This document shows, piece by piece, positions 25,026 to 32,621 of a stretch of 64,000 nt of DNA; positions within the stretch are counted from its first letter, which is position 1, and the number at the start of each line of letters is the position of its first letter. The stretch is from Elusimicrobiota bacterium (GTDB lineage Bacteria; Elusimicrobiota; UBA8919). The position numbers were made by a program, and so were the translations under genes. The stretch spans positions 777,186-841,185 of the forward strand of contig JAQUMH010000001.1 of NCBI GenBank assembly GCA_028718185.1, in the 5' to 3' direction. The notes under the pieces are model-generated. The model saw only the letters and a program-made list of their open reading frames with translations, ran no database searches and was not told the origin of the DNA.

Positions 25026-26330
25026 CTAAAGGTCTGCGGTGTTTAGGGACCAGTATGCCCTTCCCCAAAAATCAGCGACTGTTTCGGCATCGTATTTTTC
25101 CCAGTTAATACCTGTAAAATGAACAGGGTCATACCAATTTAGTGAATTATTTTTATAATAATTATTTGCAATGACAGAAAATATTTTTTTAGTCGCTTTA
25201 AGACCGCCGTTCTTGTTGAAATAATTTGCTATCTTTTGCAGATTTGCAGGATTCAACAATGCAGGGTTAGCAGAATCAAAAATATTCTTTATATCAGGTT
25301 GATTATAATCCGGTATTTCTGCTGATATTTTTGCTTTCTCCCATTTTTTATGTTGTTTTCTCAAATCACTTTTTAAATAAGAATCAACAGCCTCAAGCCA
25401 TCCGGAAGAAGATTCCGGAACTTCTAATTTTTTCTTATTAAAATTCTTTTTGTAAAATCCGATTGCCTTATCAACATCCCACATTATATCCAGGGCATCC
25501 GAATATGACATATTTTTTAATTTGACTATATCTATTGCAGGTCCAAGCTGGCTGTGTCCGTTCATAAGCGATTTCTGGTGTATTGAGCATAAAGCCCTTA
25601 TACATCTCATATATATAGGGTGCGCATACTGTGTTAAATCGGATGAGATACCGGCGGATGGATAAAGCTTACTTGATGATGGAGCATCAGAAATAGTTAC
25701 CGGTATTCCTTTTTTATTTTTCTTTATTATATTATGTGTAAAATATTCCAAAACTTTTCCAAGAGCGTTGTAAGCTTTTCCAAGTTCAGCAGATACCGGT
25801 TTGACCCGTTTCCTGTCACTTGGAACAACTTGTGAATATTTCTGTGCGAGTGACGGAAGCACCATCCCTTCTTTTGCTAATTTTTCAAATGCCTCTGATT
25901 CAATTGAAATTTTTGACCATACGTGGATTCCTGACATTGTCACATCTATCAGGTATTTTATTCCAAACGAATCTAAAATCTGCTCGACATTATTCAATGA
26001 TGATTCCATCAGCTTGAATACTTTCCTTTGGTTTCCCTTATCAAAGATATAAGCCGGATTTTCAGTGTTAAAATACTCAACATCCCATATGACATAAAGA
26101 TATTTATCATCTTTACATCTTATAGGAAAAAATAAATCCAAAGAATCATTCATTAATTCTTCTATTTTAGAAATTTCAATCTCTTTTACGGGAAATGTCC
26201 AACCCCGTTCAACTAAAACTTGTCCGGAACCAATACAATAATCATAATTTTTTGCCTGATTCAATATCAGTCCCTTAATTTTAGAATCACTGTAATACTT
26301 CTTAATAAATTCCATGTTTTTAGGTTCCAT
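25026..26330 (-). CDS. archaeo-eukaryotic primase (PriS)-like protein, copy 2
   Basis: This 434-residue cytosolic protein carries the three catalytic motifs of the archaeo-eukaryotic primase superfamily: IWDVEYFN (acidic pair D83/E85), MSGIHVW (S133, G134, H136) and a late Asp (D231 in DLTQYA) followed by RALCSIHQK (R245, S249, H251, K253). The last motif resembles the KSPF-x-VHPKTG region of PriS. The motifs align at the same residue spacing with the neighbour encoded upstream. The C-terminal 170 residues are unassigned. A strong GGAGG site precedes the ATG, three bases after the neighbour's stop. No helicase, polymerase, ligase or plasmid gene is adjacent. The family call rests on motif reading, not on a search. 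Confidence 0.6.
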   Translation of the reverse strand: MEPKNMEFIKKYYSDSKIKGLILNQAKNYDYCIGSGQVLVERGWTFPVKEIEISKIEELMNDSLDLFFPIRCKDDKYLYVIWDVEYFNTENPAYIFDKGNQRKVFKLMESSLNNVEQILDSFGIKYLIDVTMSGIHVWSKISIESEAFEKLAKEGMVLPSLAQKYSQVVPSDRKRVKPVSAELGKAYNALGKVLEYFTHNIIKKNKKGIPVTISDAPSSSKLYPSAGISSDLTQYAHPIYMRCIRALCSIHQKSLMNGHSQLGPAIDIVKLKNMSYSDALDIMWDVDKAIGFYKKNFNKKKLEVPESSSGWLEAVDSYLKSDLRKQHKKWEKAKISAEIPDYNQPDIKNIFDSANPALLNPANLQKIANYFNKNGGLKATKKIFSVIANNYYKNNSLNWYDPVHFTGINWEKYDAETVADFWGRAYWSLNTADL

Positions 26331-26333
26331 CTA

Positions 26334-27689
26334 CTACCTCCATAACTCTAAATTATGACCGCACCACTGCTGGATACAATATTTTTTTTCCTGATATGAT
26401 ATACAATTTAAATCCGGCAACCTGTCCAGACCAAGATATATAGCTGCCCCATAGAGCTGTACAAAGAAATTAGCGCGGGTTTCAGCATTATACTTATTTA
26501 TTGAAAATTCCGGTAGGTTTTTGTATTTTTTATAAAAAAAGCCGGCAATATGCTTATAATCATACCCTTTTTTCCTTAAAATTGCAATAACTGTCCTTAT
26601 ATTAGTCGGTTTTTTCAGGTGAGGGTCCGGATTTGAAATACCATGTGTGATACACGGTGGAAATTCATTGAAATTAAGGTCGTCAATTCCTTGCTCATAT
26701 TCCACGCTATCAAATTTTTTATGGAATTCGTATAATTCCGATGACTTGTATTTTGCCAGAACATTCAACCAGCCATTAGAAGCATCCGGGACAATACAGC
26801 TTGATTTGGAATCATTTGCATATTCTGAAGCCATTTTAAAATTCCGCCTCATTTTTAAAATATCAATAAGACTCAAATCGCCTGTTGGTAAAGCAATTTG
26901 TACGGGAACCTTTGAACTTATATGCTCTCCTATCTCTTCTTTCTTTACTTTATGTTTCTGATGAGTACTAAACGGGACCCTTATTGCACGCATGTATATA
27001 GAATCAGAATAGATTGTTAAATCAAGCGACACCCCTTCAGGCGGCGACATCTCAATATCACAGTATTGCAGCGAGATAATATTCTTATCTTTTTCTTGTA
27101 AAGCATAAACTCTCCGCATTATTTCTAATGTAGCAAATTGCAAAAGACGGAAAGCACCGGAATACCCAAGCCCTATATAAAGCGGGACATTAAGCTGACC
27201 TCTGATTTTTTCCCTATTCAGATATTGATATTCCAGTGACTGTTCAAGTTTGCCGATTTTTTCCAATTGCCAATGCTCGTTTCTCAATTGCCACAATGAA
27301 TGATAATGATAACCTTGCCCGGTAATGACTTCAAGATACCGTATTCCAAAATCTTTATATACGCTTTTGACAATTTCACGAACCGGTTCAATTTTGTTCC
27401 TGAAAACATTGTCGGCATTTAAATAAACTTCACCAGGTGATTTTGAATTATAATATTCTATATCAAGCGATATTAATGTCCCGTCGTGTCCCAACATCGA
27501 ACTGAATATATCCAGACCACGGTCCATCATCGCATATAAATGTGAAGGCGGTGCGGAATAATGTCCTTTTGGATTTTTCTTGCTGACCTCGGACTCGCCA
27601 TAACCTACAATATATTCGGCATTATTAATAAATTCAAATATACGGTTTCTAACTGCATTGTTTTTATAATATTCTATTTGATTAAGCAT
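26334..27689 (-). CDS. archaeo-eukaryotic primase (PriS)-like protein, copy 1
   Basis: This 451-residue paralogue of the next gene has primase motifs ISLDIEYYN (D76/E78 in this numbering), TGQGYHYHSLW (G126, H128), and SLDLTIYSDSIYMRAIRVPF (D223) running into STHQK (S241, H243, K245). These are the metal-binding acidic pair, the SG-x-H type nucleotide-binding motif and the C-terminal acidic/basic motif of PriS-type enzymes. The start is set at ATG 27689; a longer frame begins at a TTG inside a palindromic repeat. It heads a two-gene operon. The role (primer synthesis, repair, or an accessory polymerase) is unknown. Confidence 0.62.
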   Translation of the reverse strand: MLNQIEYYKNNAVRNRIFEFINNAEYIVGYGESEVSKKNPKGHYSAPPSHLYAMMDRGLDIFSSMLGHDGTLISLDIEYYNSKSPGEVYLNADNVFRNKIEPVREIVKSVYKDFGIRYLEVITGQGYHYHSLWQLRNEHWQLEKIGKLEQSLEYQYLNREKIRGQLNVPLYIGLGYSGAFRLLQFATLEIMRRVYALQEKDKNIISLQYCDIEMSPPEGVSLDLTIYSDSIYMRAIRVPFSTHQKHKVKKEEIGEHISSKVPVQIALPTGDLSLIDILKMRRNFKMASEYANDSKSSCIVPDASNGWLNVLAKYKSSELYEFHKKFDSVEYEQGIDDLNFNEFPPCITHGISNPDPHLKKPTNIRTVIAILRKKGYDYKHIAGFFYKKYKNLPEFSINKYNAETRANFFVQLYGAAIYLGLDRLPDLNCISYQEKKYCIQQWCGHNLELWR

Positions 27690-27707: not shown

Positions 27708-27775
27708 AAGCAAAGCTTCGCTTTGCAGCTACAAACCAGTTGACATTGTAGCCGCAGAGCGTTAGCTCTGCTAAA
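27708..27775. repeat. paired palindromes (AGCAAAGCTTCGCTTTGC and relative)
   Basis: AAGCAAAGCTTCGCTTTGCAGCTAC and, in the opposite sense, GTAGCCGCAGAGCGTTAGCTCTGC lie side by side around 27708-27775. They are related to the hairpin at 21612-21636. The block sits upstream of the primase-like operon. Confidence 0.75.
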
Positions 27776-27793
27776 CATTGAAATTCCTATATA

Positions 27794-28405
27794 CTAAAAC
27801 AATTTTTGGAATTTTTTTATCTCGGATTTTACATCGTTTTTTGCAACTACGGAAGAAATTGCACATAATCCGTCGGCACCTGCTTTAACAACTTCACCGG
27901 CATTAGAAAGGTTTATCCCGCCAATTGCAACTATTGGAATTGAAACAACTTTTTTTATATCTTTTATTAGAGTAATCCCTTTGGGATTTCCTGCATCAGA
28001 TTTAGTATTTGTCGCAAAAATCGGAGAAACTCCGAGGTAATCCGCACCCATCTTTTCTGCTACTTTTGCTTCTTCAATATTATGAACAGTAACACCTATT
28101 ATTTTATTTTTACCAAGTATCCTTCTGGCAACCGGATAAGACATGTCATCCTGCCCGATATGAACACCGTTGGCATTAACAGCAACTGCGATATCAAGCC
28201 GGTCATTTATTAAAAAGATAATGTCTCTACATAATCTTTTTAATACCAACGCTTCTTCATACATTTCTTTGGTAGAACCTGATTTATTACGATACTGAAC
28301 AACCTTTACTCCTGCTGAAACAGCAGATTTAACATCACTGATATTACCAGCTTTGCTTAATTCAGTATCCGTTATAAAATAATAACCGGCATAAATATTT
28401 TCCAT
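27794..28405 (-). CDS. thiE: thiamine-phosphate synthase
   Basis: This 203-residue TIM-barrel enzyme joins HMP-pyrophosphate and thiazole phosphate to give thiamine phosphate. Motifs are VQYRNKSGSTKEM, LINDRLDIAVAVNANGVHIG, IIGVTVHNIEEAKVAEKMGADYLGVSPIF and PIVAIGGINLSNAGEVVKAGADGL. It lies downstream of thiM on the same strand, with a repeat block between them. The two make a thiazole-salvage pair; no thiC, thiD or thiG lies in the window. Confidence 0.95.
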   Translation of the reverse strand: MENIYAGYYFITDTELSKAGNISDVKSAVSAGVKVVQYRNKSGSTKEMYEEALVLKRLCRDIIFLINDRLDIAVAVNANGVHIGQDDMSYPVARRILGKNKIIGVTVHNIEEAKVAEKMGADYLGVSPIFATNTKSDAGNPKGITLIKDIKKVVSIPIVAIGGINLSNAGEVVKAGADGLCAISSVVAKNDVKSEIKKFQKLF

Positions 28406-28423
28406 AGAAATATATTGAATCGT

Positions 28424-28516
28424 TGGGTTATAGGGTTATGGGGTTATAGAGTTTTAGGGTTTTAGGGTTTAGGGTTTTTAACTCTATAACTCTACAAACT
28501 CTATAACTCTAAAACT
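28424..28516. repeat. GGGTTATAGAGTTTTAGGG word repeats
   Basis: Tandem and inverted variants of GGGTTATAGGGTTATGGGG, TAGAGTTTTAGGGTTT and AACTCTATAACTCTAC fill the thiE-thiM gap. The same words occur at 17215-17270, 56300-56371 and in frame in prmC. The block can form a long weak hairpin. Confidence 0.75.
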
Positions 28517-29315
28517 ATTTTCTTGTGATTTTGCTCATCTTTTCAACAGTTTTTTTATCTAAATTGAATATTGCATCGAAAAGAGCTTCTTTAAATGAAC
28601 CCGGACCTTTTGACGATTTAACTGCAAGTTCTGCCGCTATTTCAAAACAGCAAAGACCTGCAACTGACGCTAATGCTAAATCCTTTTCTACTGCGGCAAA
28701 AGCGCCGATAACAGATGTGGCCATACATCCTGTACCTACGATGTTCGCCATCATCTGATGCCCGTTCTTCACAATATATGTTATTTTGCCATCAGTAACA
28801 ATATCCTCTTTCCCGGTTATAACAACTGTGCAATTTCTTTTTTTAGCGAGGTGTTTTGCAAGTTCAACGAGATTTTTACCTACTTCGGTTGCATCTACAC
28901 CCTTTGTTTGAACATTCTCACCGGCAATTCTTGCAACTTCAGATGAGTTACCTTTAATAATGTTAATTTTAACTTCGTCTAATAACTCAAAAGATTTCTG
29001 GTCACGCAGTTTAGTTGCTCCTGCCCCGCAGACATCAAGAACAACCGGAATGCCTTTTTCATTTGCACTTTTTGCTGCAATTTTCATTGAGTCAATAAAA
29101 TCAACGGTAAGCGTTCCGATATTGAGTACCAAAGAAGAAGCAATTTTCGCCATATCGGCAACTTCTTCCTTAGCGTGCGCCATTACCGGAGAAGCGCCAA
29201 AAACTTTCACAACATTTGCACAATCATAGATGGTAACCCAGTTAGTAAGATGATGAACAACCGGCTTCTGTGCCCTGACTTTTTCAAGCAAACTATAAAT
29301 TTCAATTTCTGGCAT
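28515..29315 (-). CDS. thiM: hydroxyethylthiazole kinase
   Basis: This 266-residue kinase phosphorylates hydroxyethylthiazole for thiamine salvage. Seen are QKPVVHHLTNWVTIYDCANV, SPVMAHAKEEV, LVLNIGTLT, PVVLDVCGAGAT, IIKGNSSEV, VVITGKEDIVTDG and the ATP/catalytic NIVGTGCMATSVIGAF. The C-terminal extension TVEKMSKITRK is short. A GGGAGGT site precedes the ATG. I looked for a TPP riboswitch in 29316-29560 and saw none; only a small CCCTTAGGTAGTGAGGG hairpin is there. Confidence 0.95.
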   Translation of the reverse strand: MPEIEIYSLLEKVRAQKPVVHHLTNWVTIYDCANVVKVFGASPVMAHAKEEVADMAKIASSLVLNIGTLTVDFIDSMKIAAKSANEKGIPVVLDVCGAGATKLRDQKSFELLDEVKINIIKGNSSEVARIAGENVQTKGVDATEVGKNLVELAKHLAKKRNCTVVITGKEDIVTDGKITYIVKNGHQMMANIVGTGCMATSVIGAFAAVEKDLALASVAGLCCFEIAAELAVKSSKGPGSFKEALFDAIFNLDKKTVEKMSKITRK

Positions 29316-29562: not shown

Positions 29563-31140
29563 TCATTCATCCTTTTTGTTTTTTTCCATATAGTCATCCA
29601 ATTTTTTTAAATTATGTTTATCTATATTTCTCTTGTATTTTTTGACTAGAGCTTTAATTGGTTCTATCACATCTGCTGCCGGAAGAATTTGATTATTAGA
29701 AAGTATGGCTTTGAAAATTTCATTTATCTGGCTCTTTGTAAAATTCCCATATTTTGATAGTTCTCTAACGTTTTCTTCAACACCTCTATAGGAACCACTA
29801 TTTCTGAAAATATTTATCACTCTTTTCTTTATGTTTATTTTAGTAATTTTATCCTTAGATTTTGTAAAAACCTGATAAGCTATTCCCCTGCATAATTCTG
29901 CATAATCGTTACCCTTTAAAGGTATTGCTTGAAAAATATCCAAAAAACCGTAAGGATCAATATCCTGAACCTTTACTGGCAGTATTTCTTTTTTATAAAT
30001 AAAAGCAATTCCAGACTCCTGATCTGTCCACTTGGATCCTCTAAAATCACTTGTTATTATAGGTATGAAAAATTTACAATGCCTTAATTCATAAATAATC
30101 TTGTTTTTCCAAATCGACGAAGGTGTTATATCATGGTGTGCAAGAAAAGAGACAATACCATATTGCTCAAGCTCACTTTTTATATTACCTGCGATTCCCT
30201 TATTGATTGTTGAATAACTAATAAAAACACAGCAACTTTTTATTTTAACACTTTTTTTTCTTCTTTTGTATTTTGTGGTAGCCCGGAGTTTATCCTCTAT
30301 TCCTATTGCTAATTTATTATTTAATGCGTTATGACTGTTTTCTTTTTTATTAACAGATGTATCTTTTTTTTGAATATCTGTAAATGAACTATCGTTTTTG
30401 ATGTTTTCATGATTCATTGCGTAATCTTTTATGCATTCAGGTAATTTTATATCAACAAAATGGATTCCACGCAGCATAGAAACAATATTATATATCTCTT
30501 TATTTATATCATCCTTAATTCTTTGTATGGTAGTATCTTTTCTAATTTTTTCTTTTTCTATTATTTCAGCAATTACCGCTGCTTTAAGAAAACCGAGGCT
30601 TTCATCACCAACACCATTATCACTAAAACTTTTATTTTTTTTGAAGTATGCAATTAAGTTACTTATATAATTTTTCTCATTTTTTATACCCTTATTACTT
30701 GTTTTGTAGGTATTTATGATATTATTTAAGAAAGATTCCAATTTCAAAAGGCCATTATAAATTATGTTGTTTATGGTTTCATTAAACTCAACATTTACCC
30801 TATAATCTTTTACCCATTCTCTCTTTTCTTCTAAAAGTTTCTGTGATACTTTGAAATCAGGACGAATGACACCTTCTTTGCCCAATTCAAAATATATCTT
30901 AAAATCAATTCTTGATTTTAAATCATTATACTGGTTTTTATCTGTTGGTTTATTTATTAAATTTTCAAAATCCTCAACCATCTCTTGTGTAAATTTGATT
31001 ATTATTGCATTACTGTTAATCTCGATTCTAAAATCATAATCAGTATCAGGGACAGGTGTCTCGTAATGGTTTACATTTGCAGTCGGAACCAACCCTTTAA
31101 TAAGATTCTCTATATATTTTATTGCATTTTCATTTTTCAT
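29563..31140 (-). CDS. TIR-domain protein, probable immune effector
   Basis: This 525-residue cytosolic protein has a TIR domain at about 300-410: CCVFISYSTINKGIAGNIKS, SFLAHHDITPSSIWKNKI, FFIPIITSDFRGSKWTDQE with the candidate catalytic Glu375, and EILPVKVQDIDPYGFLD. The N-terminal 290 residues are rich in Lys, Asn, Ile and Glu, partly helical, and match nothing I recognise. The C-terminal 110 residues are also unassigned. TIR domains with this Glu are often NAD-cleaving effectors in phage defence. It follows the AlbA_2/ATPase gene by 68 bp on the same strand, which suggests a two-gene unit. Confidence 0.82.
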   Translation of the reverse strand: MKNENAIKYIENLIKGLVPTANVNHYETPVPDTDYDFRIEINSNAIIIKFTQEMVEDFENLINKPTDKNQYNDLKSRIDFKIYFELGKEGVIRPDFKVSQKLLEEKREWVKDYRVNVEFNETINNIIYNGLLKLESFLNNIINTYKTSNKGIKNEKNYISNLIAYFKKNKSFSDNGVGDESLGFLKAAVIAEIIEKEKIRKDTTIQRIKDDINKEIYNIVSMLRGIHFVDIKLPECIKDYAMNHENIKNDSSFTDIQKKDTSVNKKENSHNALNNKLAIGIEDKLRATTKYKRRKKSVKIKSCCVFISYSTINKGIAGNIKSELEQYGIVSFLAHHDITPSSIWKNKIIYELRHCKFFIPIITSDFRGSKWTDQESGIAFIYKKEILPVKVQDIDPYGFLDIFQAIPLKGNDYAELCRGIAYQVFTKSKDKITKINIKKRVINIFRNSGSYRGVEENVRELSKYGNFTKSQINEIFKAILSNNQILPAADVIEPIKALVKKYKRNIDKHNLKKLDDYMEKNKKDE

Positions 31141-31208
31141 CTTTTTAATTCAAGAACATTACTCCAATTCTGATAATTATTTTTACTCATAATTTCTTTT
31201 TTATTTCT

Positions 31209-32621
31209 CTACAACTTCCCCTCTTCGTTATCACTATGGAGGACAAGCCAATGACCGCCTTTATCGGGACCAATGCGTTTAAGTTTTTTATGTTTAATCA
31301 ACTGGGTTAAATGATATTTAATGCCATCTTCTGTAATATTCCCTATCTTTTCCGACAATTCTTTTCTAGTAATTTCAGGATTTACTTTTATCAGATCTAA
31401 TATTTTCTGGGTAGTTTTCTGGGTAGTTTTCTGGGTAGTTTTCTGACTTTCTTTTTCCATTTGTAACGATGATTTTTTAATAGTCACCACGATACTTGTT
31501 CCCGTATATTCGAAAACTGGATCCGGTAATCCCCACTCATGACACCACTTAACTATTTTATTAGTACCTGAGCCAACCTCTTCAACGTATTTGATCCAAA
31601 AGAACTGTTTGGCAATCAGAGGATTCGGCGGCAAAGAGTCATGTTTCGTCGTCAATGTCTCTGCTGTCCACCCTTTTGGTAATCTCCCGGGATTCCAGAA
31701 TTCTATCCGATCATCAAAAATCCTCACCTGGACTTTACCCGTTGACCAATAGTCCCGATGAGCGATAGCATTGGCCAATACCTCACGGATGGCTTTTGGT
31801 GGATACTCCCACTTCTCCTGCCTTTCCAACTTTCCGGATTCAATCCATGCTGATAAAGCAATATTATTGAAGATAAACTTTTCAGCATCTTGCAACTGAT
31901 GAATGACACTACCAGTAATCGGTTTTAAATCTATCATATCTTCGGTCACATCAAGTCCTTTAAATCGAATACATTTCAACTCACATTGAGGATAAAAATC
32001 CTGCGGAACACCAAACAATAGAATAGCCGCATTGGTTGGTTTCTTGTTTTTAAGAAGCTTCATCCTCATTAATGCCTCTTGAACGGGTAATTTTTCACTT
32101 AAATCCAATCCTCGCTCAGACTTCCCCTTAAGAATGAATTCTTTGAGTAAATCACGATCTACATCTTTTAGCAAAGCACCTTTACAAATCTGGCTATCAA
32201 AACGAATTTGGTCCTTGTATTTATCAATAATCTTACTTTCGTATTCATCTTTACTCATTTTTAGAGTAGATTTACCGACACGGATAAAAGGTTTACCATA
32301 AGCCAACACCAGATGGTCAGCTGATTCTTTTACCTCAACTACAATTATCTCTTTTTTTTGTATTCTCTTTGTTATAATTTTAGGATGGATTTTGGGATCA
32401 GTATGCTGGGAAATCTGGTTAGTAAGATTTTCTATGGTATCCTTACCGATTTGAATACCAATGATTTTACCTATATTTGAAACTCCGATAAATATCTTGC
32501 CGCCTTCCGTATTTGCAAAAGCAGAAGTTGTTTCTATTATTTCATTTATTTGAGACAATGATGGTTTCCATTCTATTGTTGTTGATTCTGATTTACCCAT
32601 TAATTGAAGAGGATTTTTCAT
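31209..32621 (-). CDS. AlbA_2 domain/divergent-ATPase transcriptional regulator-like protein
   Basis: This 470-residue protein has an N-terminal AlbA_2 (Schlafen AAA_4-like) domain at about 12-130 (ESTTIEWKPS, TTSAFANTEGGKIFIGVSN, PFIRVGKSTLKMSKDEY). A GHKL-like ATPase module lies at about 270-385 (REVLANAIAHRDYW, DRIEFWNPGRLPKGW, VEEVGSGTNKI), as in RecG-like/COG2865 proteins. A TTQKTTQKTTQK linker leads to a C-terminal winged helix (VNPEITRKELSEKIG). Such proteins are annotated as regulators or defence components. A promoter lies at 32681-32708. The TIR gene follows. Confidence 0.83.
   Translation of the reverse strand: MKNPLQLMGKSESTTIEWKPSLSQINEIIETTSAFANTEGGKIFIGVSNIGKIIGIQIGKDTIENLTNQISQHTDPKIHPKIITKRIQKKEIIVVEVKESADHLVLAYGKPFIRVGKSTLKMSKDEYESKIIDKYKDQIRFDSQICKGALLKDVDRDLLKEFILKGKSERGLDLSEKLPVQEALMRMKLLKNKKPTNAAILLFGVPQDFYPQCELKCIRFKGLDVTEDMIDLKPITGSVIHQLQDAEKFIFNNIALSAWIESGKLERQEKWEYPPKAIREVLANAIAHRDYWSTGKVQVRIFDDRIEFWNPGRLPKGWTAETLTTKHDSLPPNPLIAKQFFWIKYVEEVGSGTNKIVKWCHEWGLPDPVFEYTGTSIVVTIKKSSLQMEKESQKTTQKTTQKTTQKILDLIKVNPEITRKELSEKIGNITEDGIKYHLTQLIKHKKLKRIGPDKGGHWLVLHSDNEEGKL

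Follow-up and report, generated by a model that had tools for sequence, protein, structure and literature searches.

Two adjacent genes in the window (the whole analysed DNA stretch of 64,000 nucleotides) encode divergent paralogues that, as their predicted structures show, have the fold of archaeo-eukaryotic primases (AEP, Prim-Pol). They belong to an AEP family that appears to be new, and one branch of this family is linked in operons to a gene for an EndoIV-like enzyme, an association that also appears to be new. A limited search of the open-access literature returned no account of the family or of its association with the EndoIV-like enzyme. We put at about even the chance that the two proteins act in excision repair, as chromosomal Prim-Pols filling the short gaps that follow an EndoIV-like cut.

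The ORF A/ORF B gene pair

Both reading frames are intact and lie in tandem on the minus strand, where the order of transcription is thiM, thiE, ORF A, ORF B:

28515..29315, minus strand: thiM (hydroxyethylthiazole kinase), upstream neighbour, conserved among relatives in the family
27794..28405, minus strand: thiE (thiamine phosphate synthase), upstream neighbour, conserved among relatives in the family
26334..27689, minus strand: ORF A, AEP/Prim-Pol family protein of the A-type, 451 aa, ATG start, upstream member of the pair
26337..26341, minus strand: GGAGG Shine-Dalgarno-like site within the 3' end of ORF A, 6 nt 5' of the ORF B ATG
25026..26330, minus strand: ORF B, AEP/Prim-Pol family protein, B-type paralogue, 434 aa, downstream member of the pair

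The two genes are separated by exactly 3 bp and are probably co-translated. Aligned over 438 columns, the proteins are 26% identical (E = 5e-29) and are therefore paralogues. An earlier sequence-only reading had described operonic paralogues with a 3-bp gap, and the coordinates, the gap and the identity all confirm this. It had also placed the pair outside any replication context, which agrees with the order thiM-thiE-A-B being conserved in relatives and with the gene content of the source genome (G000). DnaG is present there, while PriS (PF01896) gave no match, neither genome-wide nor for the ORF A and ORF B proteins, and Ku (PF02735) and ATP-dependent ligase (PF01068) are absent, with control genomes scoring positive.

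A short hairpin, GCAGAGCTAACGCTCTGC, is located between thiE and ORF A (window positions 27748-27771) and occurs once in the window. Further upstream, at about 2-5 kb from the pair, a gene for a TIR-domain protein (PF13676, E 1.5e-14) adjoins one for an AlbA_2/HATPase_c_4 protein (window positions 29563-32621, both on the minus strand). These two genes are a possible defence or signalling pair.

Conserved motifs and predicted fold

The motifs of AEPs are motif I (hhhDhD/E), motif II (sxH) and motif III (hD/E) (PMC5862659, PMC10345425). The corresponding residues of ORF A and ORF B, together with other conserved elements, are:

27456..27464, minus strand: ORF A motif I, D76-I-E78, predicted metal ligands, on model strand E70-81
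27306..27314, minus strand: ORF A motif II, G126-Y-H128, at the start of model strand E126-134
27021..27023, minus strand: ORF A motif III Asp, D223, at the end of model strand E218-223
26955..26990, minus strand: ORF A basic motif R234-x-I-R237-x3-S241-x3-K245, with R234 and K245 conserved among 65 homologues
26361..26405, minus strand: ORF A C-terminal Cys cluster C429-x8-C438-x4-C443, putative metal site in a region of low model confidence
26076..26084, minus strand: ORF B motif I, D83-V-E85
25923..25931, minus strand: ORF B motif II, G134-I-H136
25638..25640, minus strand: ORF B motif III Asp, D231

ORF B also carries the basic motif (R242...K253), and the spacing of the motifs is equal in both proteins. 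Among the 65 homologues no substitution of D76 or H128 was found, and gaps in these columns occur only in truncated or badly aligned rows. In the E78 column the residue is either E or D; D223, R234 and K245 are practically invariant. Motifs I-III of the AEP superfamily are near-invariant among the 65 sequences, and the alignment bears out the earlier observation of equally spaced D-x-E, G-x-H, Asp and R...K motifs in both proteins. ORF A and ORF B are paralogues that seem to have separated long ago and are apparently both active. The Cys cluster (C-x8/9-C-x4-6-C) is conserved in nearly all A-type members and is lacking in B and C types.

Searches with the ORF A and ORF B sequences against Pfam, NCBIfam, PHROGs, PADLOC and PDB sequences yielded nothing usable, and neither did a search of PDB sequences with a profile of the family. 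AlphaFold models were obtained with pLDDT values of 87.4 (ORF A) and 94.1 (ORF B). When these were compared to the PDB by Foldseek, the top 36 (ORF A) and top 37 (ORF B) matches were all AEP/Prim-Pol structures. The best match for both models was Prim-PolC of M. smegmatis with gapped DNA (6sa0; E 2e-4 for ORF A, 4e-4 for ORF B, prob 1.00), followed by LigD PolDom, CAPP and human PriS, and for ORF A also by human PrimPol. Clearly unrelated folds appeared only at E >= 0.5 and prob < 0.2. By this comparison both models have the AEP catalytic-core fold, with modest TM-scores to known AEPs (target-normalised about 0.45-0.58), and the DSSP strings place the motif residues on the expected strands or strand edges. 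A search of a viral structure library gave weak matches only, some of them AEP-like. Since the motifs are conserved and AEPs are the top matches of both models, the likeness of the motifs exceeds chance. These data support the view of the sequence-only reading that the proteins are divergent and AEP-like; the structure prediction that it had suggested as a check yielded models that match AEPs ahead of all other folds. Its label 'PriS-type' was too specific, since the structures of Prim-PolC, LigD PolDom and CAPP are nearer than PriS. ORF A and ORF B have in common with PriS the order of D-x-E, G-x-H, D and a downstream R/S/K basic motif, but they do not match PF01896 and their bacterial host has DnaG. 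With Prim-PolC (LigC-associated) they share the same type of catalytic triad, while they have no detectable sequence similarity to it and carry a long additional C-terminal part that is helical.

Distribution and phylogeny of the family

In the own phylum, 21 of 341 genomes contain homologues (the source genome has 3.03 Mb, and its relatives are Elusimicrobia MAGs). They are also present on 50 GTDB contigs that, according to the phylum labels in the MAG records, belong to Elusimicrobia, Endomicrobia, Auribacterota, Caldiserica, 'Clostridia', Chloroflexi, Planctomycetota, Fibrobacterota, Verrucomicrobiota, Desulfobacterota and Myxococcota. Just a handful of the 392 planctomycete genomes searched contain family members, so the distribution of the family is patchy. 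The searches run against viral, phage and plasmid collections revealed no relatives of ORF A or ORF B.

In a tree calculated by a quick method and containing some long branches, the A types split from a lineage comprising B and C types; ORF A groups with the former and ORF B with the latter. Of seven members sampled from the own bacterial family, six retain the tandem arrangement of A and B, and on an Auribacterota contig (L038) an A-type gene is directly followed by a gene of the B/C side. In view of these two arrangements the duplication looks old.

An EndoIV-like gene accompanies A-type members

Clustering of the neighbouring genes revealed one gene that is conserved across phyla. It encodes a PF01261 TIM-barrel enzyme of about 280 aa and is located directly 3' of A-type genes. 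A six-frame profile search detected this partner in 17 of the 50 loci, from about eight labelled phyla, as the next gene downstream and in the same orientation (L055, L056 and L059 are among the loci in which the search found it). Besides the 17 intact copies there is one broken copy. Sixteen of the intact copies belong to the 18 A-type loci outside Elusimicrobiota, and in six loci a 4-bp stop/start overlap between the A-type gene and the partner is possible. The same search of the 50 loci found no partner beside C types, and no constant partner of any kind was seen there for B/C-type members, which include ORF B and all the single-copy C types of Desulfobacterota. Within the own phylum (341 genomes), eight of the nine partner-bearing genomes are among the 15 that have an A-type AEP (Fisher p 1.4e-11; the test counts genomes as independent irrespective of relatedness, and they represent roughly five bacterial families). 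The gene linkage is strong evidence that the A-type AEP and the EndoIV-like partner belong together. The sequence-only reading had stated that no partner was visible; this holds for the genes beside ORF A and ORF B but not for the homologous loci, where the neighbourhood survey that it had proposed brought to light the PF01261 gene.

All nine EndoIV zinc-ligand positions, which we take to be those of E. coli Nfo, are invariant in the partner (14 of 14 sequences). We take the partner to be an EndoIV-like phosphodiesterase, probably tri-metal. It shares these positions and the PF01261 TIM barrel with the endonuclease IV/CbiR enzymes (AP endonuclease 2 superfamily), but it scores below the cut-offs of both curated models: about 15-36 bits for Nfo (TIGR00587, cut-off 129.65) and about 35-63 bits for CbiR (NF041277, cut-off 105). 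Its best-scoring models are those for CbiR, a non-DNA phosphodiesterase, or for sugar epimerases, all below curated cut-offs, and the nearest solved structures are the uncharacterised MJ1311, then IolI and EndoIV. Considering these best models and the proximity to MJ1311, the substrate of the partner may be other than DNA.

Two further genes were considered as conserved partners and rejected. YaeQ is encoded shortly upstream of C-type members on three closely related, sulfate-reducer-type contigs (L065, L067, L068) and is upstream only in a few such loci, and an HPF-like gene lies near a few loci only.

The partner in the source genome

In G000 the orthologue of the partner spans C1:185941-186768, 0.6 Mb from ORF A and ORF B, and belongs to a cluster nitroreductase-crp-partner-hisS at about 185-188 kb of contig C1 (L140, G000:C1:179500-192500). 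A second gene for a cNMP-binding protein lies divergently beside this cluster. The order crp-AEP-partner-hisS recurs in relatives, as a whole or in parts: crp-AEP-partner-hisS-aspS (G168), AEP (A-type)-partner-hisS (G329), crp-AEP-partner (L039) and partner-hisS (G241). G333 has nitroreductase-crp-AEP-hisS, with an A-type gene in the slot that is held by the partner in G000. By comparison of these loci, the G000 partner appears to be still in the ancestral slot; ORF A, together with ORF B, is located behind thiE. Other genomes of the own bacterial family that contain A and B have no close homologue of the partner. The partner is the sole match of G000 to the Nfo model TIGR00587 (22.8 bits, far under the cut-off), so the genome may have no other endonuclease IV.

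Putative role in excision repair and alternative functions

Considering the structural match to Prim-PolC and the independent linkage to an EndoIV-like enzyme, short-gap repair synthesis is the most likely function. Mycobacterial Prim-PolC is a gap-filling Prim-Pol with contacts to enzymes of base excision repair, a pathway in which it works together with EndoIV (PMC5663958, PMC7442782), and homologues of ORF A have an EndoIV-like gene next door. The first step would be a cut by the partner where the DNA is abasic or damaged. The Prim-Pol would then bind at the nick or gap and add a single nucleotide or a small number of them. Catalysis would use two metals bound by D76, E78 and D223, while H128 and R234/K245 would hold the nucleotide. 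A host ligase, presumably the NAD-dependent LigA, would then seal the nick. ORF A and ORF B may divide substrates between them or form a heteromer. Several findings stand against excision repair: no ligase or glycosylase was found in linkage at the loci examined, some neighbours are tRNA-related (hisS, aspS, rtcB, tRNA_edit), the partner scores nearer to CbiR and sugar epimerases, B/C types are without a constant partner, and the TM-scores are modest.

The tRNA-related neighbours could instead indicate an RNA or tRNA module, in which the AEP extends RNA 3' ends, the EndoIV-like enzyme processes RNA or a nucleotide derivative by trimming or cleavage, and the link to hisS is functional. In Elusimicrobiota and related loci, the gene directly after the partner or after the AEP is hisS, at times together with aspS, rtcB is located upstream in one Chloroflexi locus and a gene for a tRNA-editing domain upstream in one planctomycete locus, and Prim-PolC prefers ribonucleotides (PMC5663958). 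We nevertheless consider such a module unlikely, since only one section of the A tree shows the hisS linkage, rtcB and tRNA_edit were each seen a single time, and the top structural match is an enzyme acting on gapped DNA. Moreover, hisS is a housekeeping gene. Repriming in damage tolerance, as by eukaryotic PrimPol, is rather unlikely as well. In its favour are the shared AEP core, human PrimPol among the matches of ORF A and the three Cys of nearly all A-type members, whose Cys-rich C-terminal tail could be a zinc knuckle, but B and C types have no such tail, no linkage to a helicase or SSB was seen at the loci examined, and the linkage to an EndoIV-like enzyme suits excision better.

A polymerase acting in trans in NHEJ, similar to LigD-PE, is extremely unlikely: LigD PolDom is among the top structural matches and has the AEP core and the chromosomal location in common with ORF A and ORF B, but these proteins are neither fused nor linked to LigD, no Ku or ligase neighbours were recognised at the loci examined, and G000 has neither Ku nor ATP-dependent ligase. 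We also give very little credence to a replication primase of mobile elements or an AEP of defence or CRISPR systems (PrimPol-PV1, TOTE, CAPP). On a planctomycete contig (G406, L145 165-3245) a fusion of a reverse transcriptase with a TOTE-type AEP, followed by Cas1, is separated by ~2 kb from a C-type member, with the two on different strands, and the TIR and AlbA_2 genes are close to the pair in the window. However, the planctomycete locus is the only family locus seen with Cas1 nearby, ORF A and ORF B match neither PADLOC nor AEP-TOTE (PF22548), the pair is conserved behind thiM-thiE in its own bacterial family, and the mobile carriage of PrimPol-PV1 has no counterpart in the viral, phage and plasmid collections searched. 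A nucleotide-signalling module, consisting of a synthase with the AEP fold, a phosphodiesterase resembling EndoIV/CbiR and a Crp-type regulator that binds cyclic nucleotides, seems highly improbable too. In several families of Elusimicrobiota the AEP or the partner stands behind a gene of the Crp/Fnr family, and the phosphodiesterase CbiR is the best curated model of the partner in several members. Yet Crp/Fnr regulators are common, the present one carries a DNA-binding HTH, crp was not seen beside the AEP-partner pair outside Elusimicrobiota, and we know of no AEP that makes signalling nucleotides. The second-messenger and CRISPR readings have low weight because the respective linkages are lineage-limited or single.

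AEPs on bacterial chromosomes have so far been explained mostly by NHEJ (LigD) or by mycobacterial LigC/Prim-PolC. In contrast to the LigC-Prim-PolC system, G000 has no LigC-type ATP-dependent ligase. If ORF A and ORF B do fill gaps in excision repair, Prim-Pol-based excision repair extends to bacteria without Ku and without ATP-dependent ligase. Somewhat short of an even chance, we tentatively propose a repair pathway independent of both, in which a new AEP family acts with a new subfamily of EndoIV-like nucleases in a genome without canonical endonuclease IV, and two tandem Prim-Pols share the synthesis. An AEP family that existing models do not cover, present in many uncultured bacterial phyla and tied genetically to an EndoIV-like enzyme, would offer a testable two-enzyme pathway.

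Divergent family members

Very divergent D-type members with PriS-like wording of the motifs (SGKGYH, MPGQIYGKTH) were found at L072 (5932-7620) and L137 (G406). On the planctomycete contig L072 the D-type gene stands in tandem with a C-type member.
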